Positions 16,509 through 62,314 of a DNA stretch of 64,000 nucleotides are shown here, piece after piece (position 1 is the stretch's first letter; the number at the start of each line of letters is the position of its first letter). The notes beneath the pieces were generated by a model. The model had not been told where the DNA came from. It did no database searches and saw only the letters and a program-made list of their open reading frames with translations. The DNA comes from Cohnella sp. AR92 (GTDB lineage Bacteria > Bacillota > Bacilli > Paenibacillales > Paenibacillaceae): positions 62,001 to 126,000 of the forward strand of contig NZ_RZJR01000011.1 of the NCBI RefSeq assembly GCF_003990975.1, read 5' to 3'. The position numbers and the translations under genes were made by a program.

Positions 16509-16540
16509 GTGCGTTAAGGGCATAGGTGCTGCTTTTTAGG

Positions 16541-16721
16541 TCGATAGACGATTTTCTCGACTATCTGGCGTGTTTTAGGTCGCTTGGGGTGCACGATAGT
16601 CGATTTTTTCGACTACCGGGTGTGTTCTAGATCGCTTTCGGAGCTCGATAGTCGATTTTATCGACTATCTGGCTCGTTCTAGGTCGCTTGCGGTGCGCTA
16701 TAGTCGATTTTTTCGACTATC
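16541..16721. repeat. Tandem 52-bp palindromic repeat array, 4 units
   Basis: Four units start at 16543, 16595, 16647 and 16699, exactly 52 bases apart. Each begins with a stem such as ATAGTCGA-tttt-TCGACTAT, and the stretch between stems is conserved as well (TGTTCTAGGTCGCTTGCGGT-like). The array lies in the 521-bp gap between the trmB terminator and the next gene. No reading frame spans it, because 52 is not a multiple of three. It resembles the arrays at 58.0-59.0 kb. Confidence 0.85.
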
Positions 16722-16765
16722 TGCTTGCGAGGCTTGCGGGGGCGGTGCTAAATCGCGCGTATATC

Positions 16766-16836
16766 GTGTCGTACGGCAACATCTCGAGGAGTTAAGGCGC
16801 TGAGCGGCATGGAGATAGTGTCGTAGGGCAACATCT
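16766..16836. repeat. Second 52-bp repeat, 2 units
   Basis: GTGTCGTACGGCAACATCT at 16766 recurs at 16818 with one change, again 52 bases apart. The core TGTCG-tacgg-CAACA is an imperfect palindrome. The sequence is not that of the preceding array but the period is the same. Confidence 0.65.
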
Positions 16837-54252: not shown

Positions 54253-57200
54253 TTACGGCTCGACTCCCCATGCAAGCGATCCGGACAGGTAGGCCGGGGC
54301 CTTGGTCCAATCGACATAGGCCGTATCGGCAGAGTCGTAGGAGTAGTCGTCCGATTGCGAATAGTTGGTCCAGTCCGTCTTGGAGAAGCGAATCTGCAGA
54401 TCGGTGCTGGCTCCTGCCGCAAGAGAACCGGCACCGCTCGCGAAGCCGATCTCCAGGTAGTAGTCCGCGCCGGTCTTGGCGGTCGTCAGCTTGGTGAAGG
54501 CGCCGGTCACATTGGCGCTGCCTGCCGTCGCCCAATCGCAGAAGAAGCTCTGGGCTTTGTCTCCGTCGATCGTGTAGTAGTACCGGATCTTGACATTGCT
54601 TAGCGAGACGGCTGTCGTTCCCGTATTGACCAGCCTTATCCGAGGGTTGATGGATTGGGTGGACGCTGCCGTGGTGCCGTTAAACATCTGGACCTTCAGG
54701 GCTCCGCCCGAGGAGGGCGTCGTATCCGCAATGGAGATGGCCAATGCCGCGTTCGAGCCCGCGCTGAAGGCGAAGGTCAGCGTCGTGGTGCCGACCGGCT
54801 GAGCGGCGAGGTACGCCTTCTTTATCGTCACCGTCGTACCGGAGACGGCGTAATCCGTGCCGGAGACGAGAGTCGCCGAGCCGTTCTTGATAGAGGACAG
54901 CGTGTTGCCGTTCAAGGTGAGCGTGACGCCGACGTCGGCTTGATTGGCCGCGTTCTTATCGAACGTTGCCGTCGTCGGGCTGATCGTCGAGTTCGCGACG
55001 GAGGTGTTGACGACCGTCACGGCAAGCGAAGCGTTCGAGCCTGCGCTGAAGGCGAAGGTCAGCGTCGTGGTGCCGACCGGTTGAGCGGCGAGATACGCCT
55101 TCTTGATCGTGACCGTCGTACCGGAGACGGCGTAATCCGTGCCGGAGACGAGAGTCGCCGAGCCGTTCTTGATAGAGGACAGCGTATTGCCGTTCAAGGT
55201 GAGCGCGACGCTGACGTCGGCTTGATTGGCCGCGTTCTTATCGAACGTTGCCGTCGTCGGGCTGATCGTCGAGTTCGCGACGGAGGTGTTGACGACCGTC
55301 ACGGCAAGCGAAGCGTTCGAGCCTGCGCTGAAGGCGAAGGTCAGCGTCGTGGTGCCGACCGGCTGAGCGGCGAGGTACGCCTTCTTTATCGTCACCGTCG
55401 TACCGGAGACGGCGTAATCCGTGTCGGAGACGAGAGTCGCCGAGCCGTTCTTGATAGAGGACAGCGTATTGCCGTTCAAGGTGAGCGTGACGCCGACGTC
55501 GGCTTGATTGGCCGCGTTCTTATCGAACGTTGCCGTCGTCGGGCTGATGCTGGAGCCGGTAACCGGCGCGTTAACCGGGTCGGCGACCAGAATGCCGCGG
55601 CCGTTCGTTCCCAGATACACGCGGCCGTAAACCCTCGGATCCCCCGTGATCGCCATATTGATCCGCGCATATTGATGCTGGTCGTCGTTGATGCGAACCC
55701 AGCTTGCGCCGGCGTCGTCGGAGCGGAACACGCCGCGCACTCCGTCGATTTTCGCTACCGTATAGAGAGCCATATAGGTTTGGCCGGGAGCGGCCTTGCC
55801 CAAGCCGATCAGATCCGCTTCCTGCACGTTGCTCAGCTTGGTGAAGGAGGAGCCGGAGTTCGTCGAGTGCCAAAGGCCGTAGATCCCTTCGGTCTCGTTG
55901 CCGCCTGCGAACCAGATGTCGCCTTCGATGCCGGGGACGGTCTTGAGGCTGATCTGCGCTTCGTTCGGCAGCAGGCCGGCGACGTTATTCGTAGGCAAGC
56001 CGGTAGCGCCGGTAGCCGCGAAGGTGGCGCCGCCGTCCGTGCTGATGTAGAACGTGCCCTCATAGAACGCATAGAATTTGTTCTTGTTCACGCGGTCCGA
56101 GGCGATCTTCGCCAGAGCCGGTACGCCCGTGCTGGCCGTCCACGAATTGCCGTTCGTCTTCGAATAATAGACGCCTTTATCCGAGGTGCTCCAGAGGATC
56201 GAGCTTCCGTCAGCCGCAACGGCGACCGTCCCGCCTCCGGCCGTGCCGGAAGGCTCGGAGTTGGCCTTGTACCAGGTGGTGCCTCCATCGGTGGAGATGC
56301 CGATGGACCTCGGATTGTATTCCGTCGTGTCCTGGTAATCCGCCATCCCGACGCGGACGACGAAGCTCGGATTCGATTCCGCGAAGTCGATGCCGTAGGT
56401 GGTCGCCCATCTCGGGTTCGTCTGGTACGCGGTCGGTGCCGTCGTCAGATCGTCATGCCGGAAGCCCGAGACGTCGCCGATCGCGCTGAGCAGGTGAGCG
56501 CCCGAAGGAGGGCTGACGAGGCCGAGCACGGCCATCTCCTCGATGCCCTTGGCCATGACGGAGATGTTCACGGTTCCTCCGCTGTCCCATGCGGCGAGGT
56601 TGTTCGTGCCGTAGATCGTCGCTCCGGTGCCGTACATCATCCGGCTCGAATTGAACGGGTCGATCTCCAGGTCGCCGATCATCCAGCCCAGCTTCAGGCC
56701 CGGCTCCGGCGGATTGTCCGCTTTGCCGAACGTCAGCCACGGCGCGGCGGAGATATCCTGCGCGTAACGCAGCGTCCGGCTCGGATAGCCGTTCCATTCC
56801 CAGATGCCGGTCCAGGTCGTTCCGCCGTCGGTGCTGCGGAAGATGTTCGCGTCCGGCCACCAGGAATTCAGTGTAGCGACCATGATCGTATTCGGGTGCT
56901 GCTTGTCGACGGCGAGTCCGCCGTAGCCGTAATAGTTGTCGGTGCTTGAGCTCGGCACGGGGCTGATCTTCGTCCATGCCCCCGTCGCCGTATTGAGCTT
57001 CCAGACGTCGCCTTTGGCGCCGTCATAGGGCCCGACTCCGTCGCTGTAAGAGATATAGAGATAGCCCGTGGAAGCCAGGACGCCGTGGTGAGGGAGGTAG
57101 CCGGTCGGCTGTCCGGGTACGGCCGCCCAGGTCGCTCCGCCGTCCGTGCTCTTGTACACGCTGTTGCCCGTATCGGCGACGCCGACGTATATTGTCTGAG

Positions 57201-57909
57201 TCGCATTGCCCGCGCTGCCCGTCGACTTGTCGAAGGTGATCCACGCCAATCCGACGGGATCGTTGCCGTACTCCAGATCGGGGTTCTGGATATACGTGCC
57301 CGGATTCGGGAAGCTGGTCACTTTGCTCCAGGTGACTCCATAATCGGTGCTCTTCCAGAGGCCGTTGCCGCTGCGGGTTCCGAAGAAGAGGACGCTGTTC
57401 TTGTTAGGGTCGATGACGAGCCGCTCGCCCATCGAACGTCCCGGCATGTTGCCGCCGACCTTGAAGGGAAGGGGCGTTACCTGCCAGGTGTTGCCCTGAT
57501 CGGTAGAACGCATGATTTGGCCGTTCGTGTCCCAATCGTTCGTATAGGTACCCGTTGCCATGTAGACACGGTTCGGGTCCACCGGGTCGGTCGCCAGCGC
57601 GTCGACGCCGTTCTTATTCCAATCTACCCAGCCTACGGAATCGGAGATCGACACCCAGCTGCTCGTCGATTGATTCCAGCGGTAGGCTCCGCCGATGTCC
57701 GTCCTTGCGTAGATCAGGTTGGGCTGCGTCTCGTTGAAGATAATGCCGGGAACGAAGCCCCCGCCCGCGCCGGTGACGACATTCCGCCAATTATAAGCTT
57801 CGGTTCCCGCCGCTTGCGCTTTGGATCCCCCGAAGAGAGGGACTCCGGTCAGAACGAGAGCCGCCGCAAGGCATAACGAAACAGCGCGATTCCAACGTTT
57901 GTTGATCAC
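54253..57909 (-). CDS. Secreted GH74 xyloglucanase with three X2 modules and CBM3
   Basis: A secreted modular enzyme of 1218 residues. Signal peptide: residues 1-34 (SLCLAAALVLTGVPLF, AQAAG). GH74 double beta-propeller: about 38-780, with catalytic Asp71 in YARTDIGGAYRW and Asp479 in IGDVSGF. Three tandem X2/Ig-like modules of 94 residues each run over about 786-1067 and begin ISPTTATFDKNAANQADV. CBM3, which binds cellulose, covers 1071-1218. GTG 57909 has GGAGG 8 bases upstream on the minus strand. It cuts xyloglucan outside the cell. Confidence 0.93.
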   Translation of the reverse strand: MINKRWNRAVSLCLAAALVLTGVPLFGGSKAQAAGTEAYNWRNVVTGAGGGFVPGIIFNETQPNLIYARTDIGGAYRWNQSTSSWVSISDSVGWVDWNKNGVDALATDPVDPNRVYMATGTYTNDWDTNGQIMRSTDQGNTWQVTPLPFKVGGNMPGRSMGERLVIDPNKNSVLFFGTRSGNGLWKSTDYGVTWSKVTSFPNPGTYIQNPDLEYGNDPVGLAWITFDKSTGSAGNATQTIYVGVADTGNSVYKSTDGGATWAAVPGQPTGYLPHHGVLASTGYLYISYSDGVGPYDGAKGDVWKLNTATGAWTKISPVPSSSTDNYYGYGGLAVDKQHPNTIMVATLNSWWPDANIFRSTDGGTTWTGIWEWNGYPSRTLRYAQDISAAPWLTFGKADNPPEPGLKLGWMIGDLEIDPFNSSRMMYGTGATIYGTNNLAAWDSGGTVNISVMAKGIEEMAVLGLVSPPSGAHLLSAIGDVSGFRHDDLTTAPTAYQTNPRWATTYGIDFAESNPSFVVRVGMADYQDTTEYNPRSIGISTDGGTTWYKANSEPSGTAGGGTVAVAADGSSILWSTSDKGVYYSKTNGNSWTASTGVPALAKIASDRVNKNKFYAFYEGTFYISTDGGATFAATGATGLPTNNVAGLLPNEAQISLKTVPGIEGDIWFAGGNETEGIYGLWHSTNSGSSFTKLSNVQEADLIGLGKAAPGQTYMALYTVAKIDGVRGVFRSDDAGASWVRINDDQHQYARINMAITGDPRVYGRVYLGTNGRGILVADPVNAPVTGSSISPTTATFDKNAANQADVGVTLTLNGNTLSSIKNGSATLVSDTDYAVSGTTVTIKKAYLAAQPVGTTTLTFAFSAGSNASLAVTVVNTSVANSTISPTTATFDKNAANQADVSVALTLNGNTLSSIKNGSATLVSGTDYAVSGTTVTIKKAYLAAQPVGTTTLTFAFSAGSNASLAVTVVNTSVANSTISPTTATFDKNAANQADVGVTLTLNGNTLSSIKNGSATLVSGTDYAVSGTTVTIKKAYLAAQPVGTTTLTFAFSAGSNAALAISIADTTPSSGGALKVQMFNGTTAASTQSINPRIRLVNTGTTAVSLSNVKIRYYYTIDGDKAQSFFCDWATAGSANVTGAFTKLTTAKTGADYYLEIGFASGAGSLAAGASTDLQIRFSKTDWTNYSQSDDYSYDSADTAYVDWTKAPAYLSGSLAWGVEP
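54755..55600 (-). repeat. Three tandem 282-bp repeats inside the xyloglucanase gene
   Basis: The start of the block GCGCTGAAGGCGAAGGTCAG occurs at 54761, 55043 and 55325, exactly 282 bases apart. Units differ at only a few positions. They encode the three X2 modules. Confidence 0.92.
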
Positions 57910-57963
57910 GGTTAAGACCTCCGGGATATTAAGATAAATGCAGAGTGGGAAAATAACCGATCG

Positions 57964-58600
57964 TACGATTAGACTACTTCCGCTCCAGACTCCCGGCCCG
58001 CCGCCGAGATCGTCTCATTCGAGACTAATTCCGCAACAGACACTCGGCTGATCGACGAGATCGTCTCATTCGAGACTAATTCCGCACCAGCCTCTCGGCT
58101 CACCGTCGAGATAGTCTCAAACGAGACTAATTCTGCTCCACCCCCCCCGTCCCACCGCCGAGATAGTCTCAACCGAGACTAATTCCGCACCAGACACTCG
58201 GCTGCTCGCCGAGATAGTCTCATTCGAGACGAATTCTGCTCCAATCCCCCGTCCCACCGCCGAGATAGTCTCATTCGAGACTAACTCCGCTCCAACCACT
58301 CGGGCCACCGTCGAGATCGTCTCATTCGAGACTAATTCCGCTCCAGCCTCCCGGTAATCGACGAAATAGTCTCAACCGAGACTAACTCCGCACCAGACAC
58401 TCGGGCCATCGCCGAAATAGTCTCAACCGAGACTAACTCCGCACCAGACACTCGGGCTATCGCCGAGATCGTCTCATTCGAGACTAATTCCGCTCCAGAC
58501 TCTCGGGCCATCGCCGAGATCGTCTCATTCGAGACTAACTCTGCTCCAGCCTCCTGGCTCACCGCAGATATCGTCCCAACCGAGACTAAATCATCTCCAA
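57964..58600. repeat. Tandem 51-bp palindromic repeat array, about 12 units
   Basis: Units begin at 58006, 58057, 58108, 58160, 58211, 58262, 58313, 58363, 58414, 58465, 58516 and about 58566, after a degenerate unit at 57964. Each holds GTCTC-nnnn-GAGAC, often extended to TAGTCTC-aacc-GAGACTA, and then a conserved TAATTCCGCTCCAGACTCTC-like stretch. Minus-strand frames stay open because most periods are 51 bases, but there are no ribosome binding sites. It occupies the first half of the 1182-bp gap upstream of the xyloglucanase gene. Confidence 0.88.
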
Positions 58601-59040
58601 GTCCCCGGTCCTCGACAGGACTAACGGGCCCTCGCAAGCGCCGACGGGCGGGAGATCGTCGACAATATCGACTAACGAGCCCTCGCAAGCGCCGGACAGG
58701 CGGGAGATCGTCGAAAATATCGACTATCGAGCCCTCATGAGCGCCGAATGAGCGGGAGATCGTCGAAAATATCGACTATCGGGCCCTCGCAAGCGCCGAC
58801 GGGCGGGAGATCGTCGACAATATCGACTAACGAGCCCTCGCAATCGCCAGAAGGGTTGGAGATAGTCGACAATATCGACTATCGAGCCCTCGCAAGCGCC
58901 GGACGAGCGAGAGATCGTCGACAAAATCGACTAACGAGCCTTCATGAGCGCCGAATGAGCGGGAGATCGTCGACAATATCGACTATCGGGCCCAAAAAGG
59001 CGCCGTGAGGATGATAGATAGCCGATAGAATCGACTAACG
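58600..59040. repeat. Tandem 52-bp palindromic repeat array, 8 units
   Basis: Units begin at 58654, 58706, 58758, 58809, 58861, 58913, 58965 and 59017, with a partial unit before. Each has a stem such as CGTCGA-caata-TCGACTA (TAGTCGA/TCGACTA in the best unit) and a tail CGAGCCCTCGCAAGCGCCG. The palindrome matches that of the array at 16.5 kb. The array abuts the 51-bp array without a break. Confidence 0.88.
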
Positions 59041-59091
59041 GCTTGCCGGGTCTTGCTTCCTCGCGATTTCACCTCCTTTCATCGTCATCGA

Positions 59092-60759
59092 TTAGTGGCT
59101 GCCGACGACAGCCTGAACTTCCCGGGTGATCTGGTCGCCTCCTTGCCGCTTCCATTCCTGCGCGAAGCCGTCGAACGCGTCGATCGGCTGGTCTCCGACC
59201 ACGATGTTCAAGAACGTTTCGTTCTCCAGCCTCTCGAGATCCGCCCAGCGCTTCTCCATCGTCCTCGTCGTGCCGTAGAACACGCTTTTGACCTTCTCCA
59301 TCGGCCTGGACAGCAGCGCGCTTCCTCCGTATTCATAAGCCTTGGCGGCTTTCCAGCCGTCCATGTCCTTCTTCGGGCTGGCTTGCTCGGCCAGCCAATA
59401 ATCGTAAATCTTGCGGGTATCGGGATCGAGGGAGGCGACCGTTCGTTTGCCGTCCAACGCGTCCTTGACCCCGAGATACCGCTGCTCGATCGCGTCGGTA
59501 TAATCGAGCAGCAGGTCGAACGGATAGTACTGCCTCGGCTGAACGCCGGTCTTCGCCGCGAACTCGTCGATCTGCTTGACGGCCGCTTCGTTGGGATCTT
59601 GCCTGCGCTCGAGCCGGGTGAAGGCGTTCAGCAGCTTGATCGCCGCTTCGGGATGTTCATAGCCCTTCCGTACGACCAAGTAGCGGTCGGTGACCGGCGC
59701 CATATGCGTCACGTATTGGCCGTCAGCATCCAGAGGGGCCGCGTAAGCCCGCCATTCCGCCTTCGTATCGGAGGCGACCGCTTCGGAGAGGGGCCAATAC
59801 GGCATCCACCAAGGACCGAAGAAAATGCCGGTCCGATTGGAGGTAATCGGCTCTTGAGCCTCCTTGTACAGGGCGAACTGCGGATCGATCAAGCCAAGCT
59901 TGTACCATTCCGCCAGCTTCTCCAGGGCAAGCTTGTTCTCGGGCATGATCGATCCGTACACGACGTTGCCCGAAGCGTCCCGGACCCAGTTCTTGGGGAA
60001 GGCATGGAAGCTGCTGAAGACGGCGTCGAAGCCGCTGACATTCAGCTTCTGTCCGTAGACGAGAGACTTATAGCCGGCAAGGCCGACCGTATCCCTCTTG
60101 CCGTTGCCGTCGGGATCCCTCTCGATGAACGACTTCGCGATGGCGGCGATGTCGTCAAGGGTTCGAGGCGGCTTCAGGTTCAGCCGGTCAAGCCAGTCCT
60201 GGCGGACCCACAGCAGCGAGGTCGCGTCGGCTTCGATTGCGATGTTCGGCAAGCCGTAGAGCTTGCCGCCGAAGCGCGCTTCCTCCAGCGCGGCTCCCTC
60301 GGTCGCGTCGTACATTCCCTTGACGAGGCTGGAGCCGTAGTCCTCGTAAGCGTCGGTCAGATCCTGAATCATGCCGTACTCGATCAGCTTGCGAAGTTGA
60401 GAGCGGTCCACGACCATCGCGTCCGGAATGTCGCTGCTCGCGATGGCGAGACTTACCTTCTGCCCGAAGGCTTCGTCGCCCTTGGCTTCCCACGAATGAA
60501 CGACCTTGATGTTCGTCAGCTCCTCGAAATAGCGCGACATCGGGTTGTTGTCGTTGGTGTCTCCCGTGGTCAGCCGGGCATCCGGGATCTTGAAGCCGAT
60601 CCGCAGCGTTACGGGAGCGTCATAGCTCGAGAACGCGGGGGCGGTCTCCTTGACCAGAGCGGTCGCATCGGACGGGGACGCATGCCCCGCGCAAGAGCTG
60701 AGAAGCACGGGGGCGAGCAGCAGGGGGAGCGCGAGCTTGGTGGTGGACAAGGTGGACAT
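59092..60759 (-). CDS. ABC sugar-transport substrate-binding lipoprotein (LplA-like)
   Basis: A 555-residue extracellular lipoprotein: lipobox LLSSC with Cys23. The mature part is of the long LplA/YtcQ-like type (WVRQDWLDRLNLKPPRTLDD, YGLPNIAIEADATSLLWVRQ). The start at 60759 has GGAGG 6 bases upstream; a longer frame toward 60879 lacks one. It is 55 bp after the response regulator gene and may be cotranscribed. Sugar unknown; the nearby xyloglucanase suggests xyloglucan oligosaccharides. Confidence 0.85.
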   Translation of the reverse strand: MSTLSTTKLALPLLLAPVLLSSCAGHASPSDATALVKETAPAFSSYDAPVTLRIGFKIPDARLTTGDTNDNNPMSRYFEELTNIKVVHSWEAKGDEAFGQKVSLAIASSDIPDAMVVDRSQLRKLIEYGMIQDLTDAYEDYGSSLVKGMYDATEGAALEEARFGGKLYGLPNIAIEADATSLLWVRQDWLDRLNLKPPRTLDDIAAIAKSFIERDPDGNGKRDTVGLAGYKSLVYGQKLNVSGFDAVFSSFHAFPKNWVRDASGNVVYGSIMPENKLALEKLAEWYKLGLIDPQFALYKEAQEPITSNRTGIFFGPWWMPYWPLSEAVASDTKAEWRAYAAPLDADGQYVTHMAPVTDRYLVVRKGYEHPEAAIKLLNAFTRLERRQDPNEAAVKQIDEFAAKTGVQPRQYYPFDLLLDYTDAIEQRYLGVKDALDGKRTVASLDPDTRKIYDYWLAEQASPKKDMDGWKAAKAYEYGGSALLSRPMEKVKSVFYGTTRTMEKRWADLERLENETFLNIVVGDQPIDAFDGFAQEWKRQGGDQITREVQAVVGSH

Positions 60760-60814
60760 GGGCAACCTCCGTTGAACAGCGCCATCGGATGATCGCGCTT
60801 TCATTTTAATCCGT

Positions 60815-62314
60815 CTAGTCTCGGAGAAGAGAGTGAAATTCGCCTTGCATTCGGGATATTCCGCCCGCTGATTGCGCACCGTTCTCGTACCGCTTCGAAC
60901 GGATTTCCTCCCTGTCCGCGCGATATTCGGTCGGAAGCTTGCCGACCCGCTCGCGGAACAACTTGCTGAAGTACTTGTCGTCTTCGAAGCCGGCGGCGGC
61001 GGCGATCTCGTAGACGGGGGAGGCGGTGTTCAACAGCAGCCACTTGGCCCGCTCGATGCGGATATTGCGCAGAATCTCCCCGAACGGCTGCCCCGCGAAC
61101 CGGGCGAAGCATTGGCTGAAGTAGCTTCGGCTCATATTGATGTGGGCGGCGACGTCGTTCTGGTTGATCTTGTCTCCGGCATTCCTCGTCATGAAGCGGA
61201 TCGCCCGGATCAGGCAGGCCATCACTTCCCGGGAGAGAGATAAGTCGATCATTCGGTTGCGGACTCGATCGGAGAAATGGCGCAGCCAGCTCTCCCAGTC
61301 CTTCCAGCTCGAACTGCCGGCCGCGGCGGCAGCGAGCTTATCGGCGTCCCTCGGCTCCAGCAGGACATCCGCCCAAATTCGGCACAGCTCATGCGCGAAA
61401 TCCCGAAGCTTCGGCGGAGCGATGCGATGGCGAACGATTCCTCGGGTGAACTCCTCCCATTCCCGGTTGTAGAGCGTCCAGCGCAGCTCCTGGCCGGCTT
61501 CCAGCCAATCGGCAGCCGCTCGGTCTCCTCCGGGTCCGGCATCCCGCACGCAACGGATCAAGTCTTCATAAGAAAGTCTGGATATTCCGCCGTCTTCGTC
61601 CTCCGAATAGAAGAGGGTGCCGCCGAGTCCGGCCTCCAACGTCTCTTGAAGATCCTGCAGTCGCTCATTCGAGATGCCGTTCAACTGGATGGTGCGCCAT
61701 CGCCCATGGGAGGCGCCGCGCATCTCCTTGAACAATTCCTCCGACGAGGGGGAGCCTTGAAGAGGAGCCAGTCGGTATTTACCCAGCCGGATCAAGCGGC
61801 TTCTCGTGACCGAAGGCAGCCGAAGCAGCTCCGCGTCGATGTCCTCTTCCAAGAGCGGAACGAACAATAAGCCGGAGGAAGAAGGGAAAGGCTGATTCGC
61901 CTCCTCCTGGACTTGGGAGGGGCGGTTCATGTTCTCCCAGCCGATTCTCTCGACGATTCGGCCCATGACCTCGTCGGCATTCTCGACTTCGAGCAGCGTC
62001 TTTACGATATAGTCGATCGCGCCCAGCCGAAGCGCTTCCTGGATGTAGTCGAATTCGTGGTGGCAGGTCAGGATAACGGAACGAATATGCGGGTGCCGCT
62101 GGCGGACCGCCTTGATCAGCTCGAAGCCGGACATGCCCGGCATGGTGATGTCGGTGAAGAGAAGATCGGCTTCGGTCCGTTCGAGCAGATCCAGCGCGGT
62201 TCTTCCGTCGCCAGCTTCGCCGACGATCGAGATTCCGAAGGACGGCCAATCGAACATCGAGATGAACCCTTTGCGAACCAATTTCTCGTCGTCCACCACG
62301 ACGGCTCTTAACAT
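60815..62314 (-). CDS. Response regulator, YesN-type (REC + AraC HTH)
   Basis: A 499-residue transcription regulator. The receiver domain (1-120) has acidic pair D8-D9 and phospho-acceptor D55 in LLFTDITMPGMSGFE. A helical middle region follows. The last 100 residues are an AraC-type DNA-binding domain (DVAAHINMSRSYFSQCFARF, IAAAAGFEDDKYFSKLFRER). Such regulators normally pair with a YesM kinase, which is not in the window. It lies between two sugar-binding protein genes. Confidence 0.9.
   Translation of the reverse strand: MLRAVVVDDEKLVRKGFISMFDWPSFGISIVGEAGDGRTALDLLERTEADLLFTDITMPGMSGFELIKAVRQRHPHIRSVILTCHHEFDYIQEALRLGAIDYIVKTLLEVENADEVMGRIVERIGWENMNRPSQVQEEANQPFPSSSGLLFVPLLEEDIDAELLRLPSVTRSRLIRLGKYRLAPLQGSPSSEELFKEMRGASHGRWRTIQLNGISNERLQDLQETLEAGLGGTLFYSEDEDGGISRLSYEDLIRCVRDAGPGGDRAAADWLEAGQELRWTLYNREWEEFTRGIVRHRIAPPKLRDFAHELCRIWADVLLEPRDADKLAAAAAGSSSWKDWESWLRHFSDRVRNRMIDLSLSREVMACLIRAIRFMTRNAGDKINQNDVAAHINMSRSYFSQCFARFAGQPFGEILRNIRIERAKWLLLNTASPVYEIAAAAGFEDDKYFSKLFRERVGKLPTEYRADREEIRSKRYENGAQSAGGISRMQGEFHSLLRD

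Follow-up and report, generated by a model that had tools for sequence, protein, structure and literature searches.

Arrays of imperfect palindromes at a 51-52-bp spacing between genes of Cohnella sp. AR92 and its relatives

The palindromic repeat arrays that we describe here from Cohnella sp. AR92 are a class of intergenic DNA elements with a patchy occurrence across the order. Their period stays within 1-2 bases, in many species and with many stems, while the sequence turns over, which suggests that something measures length; identifying it would reveal either a protein that organises DNA or a mechanism of duplication. We tentatively favour, with a probability of roughly 0.36, a reading in which the arrays are DNA platforms with palindromic sites for a protein, spaced at about five helical turns, and may have a topological or boundary role. 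The literature covered by our search terms gave no description of such 51-52-bp palindrome arrays, and a term search of PMC12306157 found neither Paenibacillus nor Cohnella nor tandem.

Anatomy of the arrays in the window

The window, the 64,000-nucleotide stretch analysed here, is C8:62001-126000 of the 6.02-Mb genome, which is in 36 contigs. The earlier note had described 57964-59040 of this window as 12 units of 51 bp directly abutting 8 units of 52 bp, and TRF, self-matching and the positions of the units confirm this (Table 1). TRF places array A at 57971-58589 (period 51, 12.1 copies) and array B at 58619-58993 (period 52, 7.2 copies). When lags of 45-59 are compared, self-match is 0.71 at lag 51 in array A and 0.69 at lag 52 in array B, with the remaining lags at 0.18-0.34. 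The 12 hairpin units of array A start at 58006 (first) to 58567 (last), with steps of 51 throughout except one of 52 and one of 50; the starts in array B run from 58652 to 59015 in 52-bp steps, one being 51. From the last A palindrome to the first full B palindrome is 85.5 bp, so that the two arrays are out of step.

Table 1. Coordinates of the arrays and flanking features in the window
Feature	Position	Strand	Description	Basis
Array C	16538..16723	none	Class II palindromes, 52-bp step	
Two copies of a further class, adjoining array C	16765..16836	none	GTGTCGTA(C/G)GGCAACATCT, 52 bp apart	Sequence
Flanking gene	54253..57909	-	Sortilin-Vps10/BNR protein with CBM_X2 and CBM_3 domains; start faces array A	Pfam
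Part unit, edge of array A	57964..58005	none	3' half of class I palindrome and linker	Sequence
Array A	58006..58617	none	12 units, 51-bp step, loop of 4	
Array A unit			Imperfect palindrome GAG-A-TAGTCTC-N4-GAGACTA-A-(T/C)TC	
Part unit, A/B junction	58618..58651	none	3' half of class II palindrome, GACTAAC at 58619	
Array B	58652..59040	none	8 units, 52-bp step, TAGTCGA-N5-TCGACTA	
Flanking gene	59092..60879	-	595-aa protein without Pfam match; stop faces array B	

The GTCTC/GAGAC and TCGA stems that had been read from these units are present, but most of them are imperfect: the 7-bp stem is unbroken in 5/12 A units and 1/8 B units. Written out, the array B unit is GAGATAGTCGA-N5-TCGACTA(A/T)C, and its first arm is mostly TCGTCGA. 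An A-to-C change (GATCGTC) faces an unaltered T, and is thus uncompensated, in 6/12 A units and 6/8 B units; because it is common to both arrays, it suggests that array B arose from array A in place, or that the two have exchanged sequence.

Arrays A and B sit between two minus-strand genes of the same direction, one with its stop at 59092 and the other with its start at 57909. Within the latter, which bears CBM_X2, a 282-bp unit is repeated in 2.8 copies at 97% identity (window 54749-55548). The array at 16.5 kb has the same architecture, as had been proposed, with a class II stem at 52 bp. R1, a covariance model of three hairpins, matches both array B (C8:120757-120884, window 58757-58884, E 6.5e-15) and array C (C8:78594-78722, window 16594-16722, E 1.2e-17). 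The two copies that adjoin array C are of the same class as the arrays at L022 8700 and L046 7581.

Abundance, period and spread

The idea that the arrays belong to a genome-wide family, diversified in stem and conserved in spacing, is borne out, and the family is larger than proposed. A blastn search with arrays A and B found 43 places in the genome. Within 620 tiled kb there are 14 array loci, which extrapolates to roughly 136 genome-wide, a rough figure since the contigs C8 and C6 were picked for already holding matches. A perfect-hairpin detector that is blind to sequence, applied to 40 stretches totalling 800 kb (31 of them tiles of C8 and C6, 9 placed around matches), gave hairpin-pair spacings with maxima at 51 and 52 and at multiples of these. 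It found 19 chains of at least 3 hairpins, in three palindrome classes, and TRF adds further classes. Repeats within coding sequence were rejected as an explanation, since 13/19 arrays from the tiles of this genome have period 52, which is no multiple of three.

A TRF scan for period, blind to palindromes and hairpins, found a period of 50-53 in 37/139 arrays of Cohnella and its relatives, as against 0/22 arrays of Bacillota that do not belong to the order (329 kb; Fisher, 0.0025). The former comprise 19/58 arrays in the tiles of this genome (620 kb), 6/13 in other Cohnella stretches, 5/32 in other genera of the family and 7/36 in the surroundings of a single gene, from 80 loci of named relatives that include a few from outside the order. 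In a wider set of 115 arrays selected for a period of 50-53, 67 have 52, 47 have 51 and 1 has 50. Periods of 41 and 62 bp are almost missing from the scan, at one array each, so helical phasing by itself is insufficient to explain 52. In G019, L157:18519-18788 is a tandem repeat whose 41-bp unit comes near four helical turns.

Individual palindrome classes are narrowly distributed. Exact class I palindromes (TAGTCTC-N4-GAGACTA) number 94 in the genome, with 0 for the reversed-pattern control, and occur in 0/36 congeners. Exact class II palindromes (TAGTCGA-N5-TCGACTA) number 67 (control 1), with 68 in G033, 33 in G018 and 13 in G035; they occur in any number in 11/295 family genomes, where a lone match carries little weight, as the reversed pattern also yields 0-4 matches in each genome. 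The R1 model reaches further, matching 35/37 Cohnella genomes at E 0.01. At E 1e-4 it matches 45/177 family genomes (17 Cohnella, 28 of other genera), and it matches 22/119 order genomes (14 belonging to other families) and, across the phylum, the AR92 genome alone among 249; these family, order and phylum runs used stricter filters and scored 19, 29 and 13 candidates per genome, which makes the counts lower bounds, and the phylum run was the least sensitive. One R1-negative genome, G013, nonetheless has a 52-bp array of 2.4 copies.

Palindromes, stem switches and turnover

A near-perfect palindrome (at least 8/9 Watson-Crick pairs) is found in 18/37 arrays chosen by period, against 1.5% of 3700 shuffles, and is missing in the other 19/37. 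The consensus of 48 oriented 52-bp units is GAG(A/T)TAGTCGA-AAAAA-TCGACTAAC, with strong TA and CG anchors and two free positions in between. The anchors, as TAxxCGx-N5-xCGxxTA, recur in 34/115 arrays with 17 distinct stems, while strict anchors are missing in 81/115.

The compensating stem changes anticipated in the earlier note do not occur within arrays A and B, where 1/10 pairs (array A; equalled in 294/500 shuffles) and 0/7 pairs (array B) are changed on both sides; a comparison across arrays and species does support them. Where the anchors set the register, pairing at the free stem positions is seen in 38/51 cells; 1000 shuffles average 21.3 and reach 33 at most. This supports covariation of the free positions, with the caveat that some arrays in the set were found via the R1 structure model, so that the set leans towards pairing. 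A further alignment, A2, is 98% paired with 21/21 pairs covarying, and is circular, as its triples were picked for perfect hairpins. Because the double-stranded site of a dimer and a hairpin both predict covariation, covariation alone does not discriminate between DNA and RNA.

Stems can switch within an array while the step is kept. In locus L144 (G033), six TAGTCGA units are followed by six TGCACGG units with every step 52, the flanks being kept throughout and the A-loop in all units but one; in L247 (G108), TTGCTCGG/CCGCGCAA passes to TAACTCGA/TCGACTTA at 52. Junctions between classes are also near step in L197 (also G108; 54) and L041 (49), and out of step in L021, L024, L176 and another part of L144 (99, 95.5, 30 and 138 bp). 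At L144:13733 one unit has both arms intact and a TTTTT loop in place of AAAAA, a pattern resembling an inverted hairpin. The same locus carries a ZTP riboswitch on its minus strand (L144:6910-6995; 53.8 bits).

The arrays also turn over between relatives. The gaps of C. fermenti and C. xylanilytica that are orthologous to that of arrays A and B hold no 51/52 array; in C. fermenti this slot is taken by 14.5 tandem copies of a 12-bp unit (GATGCGGAGTTT; L049:7065-7242). Of 30 loci fetched for the gap between SOD and MutY, 19 show both genes, and 7 of these 19, our genome included, have a 51/52 array in the gap, with differing units. L280 was left out of this count, its 2.1-copy 51-bp repeat being inside MutY, as were L278, L279, L285 and L293, which have arrays and no SOD in the locus. 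In G033, the closest relative as judged from MutY (84%), the gap contains no more than two degenerate copies that resemble class V of our genome (64% identity, E 0.001). A derivation of the linkers from local unique sequence is weakened by these copies, and also by the CATGCGGCG-like class V linkers common to L017 and L027, and not L024.

Genomic context and possible explanations

Arrays are rare between divergent genes. The array loci of the AR92 genome lie in 9 convergent, 15 same-direction and 1 divergent gaps (1/25), with 2 more at stretch ends, compared with 37, 177 and 64 among all its gaps of at least 100 bp (array gaps included); divergent gaps are thus rarer (Fisher, 0.022) and convergent ones commoner (0.006) at array loci. 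The gene caller was simple and some genes are mis-set: L012, for example, is scored as same-direction where the window shows convergence. Oriented arrays from many genomes, a set that overlaps the first and includes model-chosen loci, lie in 23 convergent, 37 same-direction and 2 divergent gaps (2/62). Among 97 gene ends that face an array within 500 bp, an intrinsic-type terminator stands before the array at 22 and within 250 bp beyond at 2. Since 32/219 comparison gene ends without arrays have a terminator too, and none was seen at most array-facing ends, this argument is weak, and a position of the arrays past terminators is only suggested.

No gene linked to the arrays emerged, although a search for such a protein or a reverse transcriptase-like gene had been suggested: the 30/48 neighbour proteins of own-genome arrays that were scanned include no recurrent gene and are mostly of ordinary metabolic, transport and repair kinds, with two without match and one Mutator transposase. 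The genome has one RVT_1 match, and a reverse transcriptase was rejected as partner in view of array matches in four genomes with no RVT_1 match (G003, G004, G005 and G017). A RAYT was likewise rejected, with 0 matches to PF01797 in the genome.

The element consists of head-to-tail imperfect palindromes (~18-27 bp), centre to centre 51-52 bp or about five helical turns apart, and we suggest that arrays of it act as DNA, in the manner of multi-site platforms. A putative protein would read the conserved anchors, TA outside and CG inside, and bind each palindrome, so that bound units would align on one face of the helix. Between transcription units, the platforms might then have a topological function or act as boundaries, as proposed for REP/BIME elements; roles of REPs in supercoiling, termination and mRNA stability are described as hypotheses in PMC3733652. 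Arrays would grow, shrink and homogenise through tandem duplication and unequal exchange, by which each array would drift to its own linker and stem. A bolder form, in which the arrays are a wholly new chromosomal element of the order that sets boundaries between transcription units through a length-ruled array and a dedicated putative protein, seems to us doubtful; here identity would drift while palindromy, anchors and spacing were kept, the array being both built and read by that protein. Several observations weigh against the DNA-platform reading: stem classes frequently meet at distances other than the step (99, 95.5, 30, 138 and 85.5 bp, versus 52, 52, 54 and 49), periods of 41 or 62 bp are scarce, and near-perfect palindromes (19/37) and strict anchors (81/115) are missing from many arrays.

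Nearly as likely as the DNA platform is a selfish or mutational by-product without function, whose hairpins would promote replication slippage and template switching: these would amplify the 51-52-bp unit and copy changes from arm to arm, so that palindromes and covariation persist. The empty orthologous gaps in C. fermenti and C. xylanilytica and the differing units between SOD and MutY fit such turnover, and the loop flip in L144 is expected from intrastrand template switching; the recurrence of the TA and CG anchors across species and the avoidance of divergent gaps are harder to accommodate, and we know of no slippage feature that sets 51-52 bp across differing sequences. We regard it as rather unlikely that the arrays are transcribed as tandem hairpin RNA, with one hairpin per 52 nt in a regulatory, decoy or small-RNA array. 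The elements do have a polarity, the A-loop strand reading GATA...TAAC with a recurrent A.A mismatch (27/99 mismatches), and this strand is the coding strand in 26/37 same-direction arrays (binomial, 0.020, not all being independent), a bias that a purely DNA role need not produce. A second hairpin in the linker, centred at 34-36, is weak and was noticed post hoc (26 versus 9.7 expected), and linkers fold little more than their shuffles (mean z -0.18). G.U mismatches are not clearly favoured over A.C (20 versus 14, binomial 0.39), no promoter-like site was found in 57850-59200 (shuffles 0.5), and Rfam 15 gave 0 matches at gathering score in the window and, over the arrays of six array loci, only matches below it. 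Anchors, palindromy, a length constant to 1-2 bases and the rarity in divergent gaps fit a DNA platform somewhat better than transcribed hairpins. Least probable, and in our view improbable, are palindromes that a transposase (REP/RAYT-like or MITE-like) mobilised and dispersed and that were then amplified in place: the same stems do stand at many dispersed loci, and the polarity and mismatch are reminiscent of REP elements, but the genome lacks the Y1 transposase (PF01797), its presence in 12/37 genus genomes does not visibly follow how many array matches they have, and most arrays of a given class have linkers of their own.

The arrays can be compared with several known systems. BIMEs are located near gene ends. 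Like REP and BIME elements, the arrays are short imperfect palindromes, many per genome, dispersed and intergenic (94 of class I, 67 of class II). However, they are direct head-to-tail repeats at 51-52 bp, whereas BIMEs alternate in orientation (PMC2817692); they also have many stem sequences and array-specific linkers, and their genome is without the Y1 transposase. With both RAYT and alternation missing, we do not class them as REP/BIME, even if they may work somewhat similarly. In contrast to arrays of intrinsic terminators, which have a T-run after the stem, 57850-59200 has 0 terminator-like sites (shuffles 1.5), and terminators lie inside arrays at 2/97 gene ends. Intergenic minisatellites or VNTR, such as MIRU, have tandem units of ~50 bp, as do the arrays, whose period, however, is constant across sequences and species and which hold a near-perfect palindrome in about half of the period-chosen cases. 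The repeat RNAs of type III toxin-antitoxin systems are tandem structured repeats of similar length; the arrays differ in being scattered over the genome, and no toxin family was recognised among the adjacent proteins scanned. CRISPRs share the regularly spaced palindromic repeats and a similar unit length, but the would-be spacers of the arrays are near copies of one another within an array, the arrays are many and dispersed, and no cas-type Pfam match was found in 6 window proteins or the 30/48 scanned neighbours. The arrays could be mistaken for CRISPRs. They may also break assemblies, as four matches, in contigs C16, C19, C24 and C31, lie within the first 1 kb of the contig.
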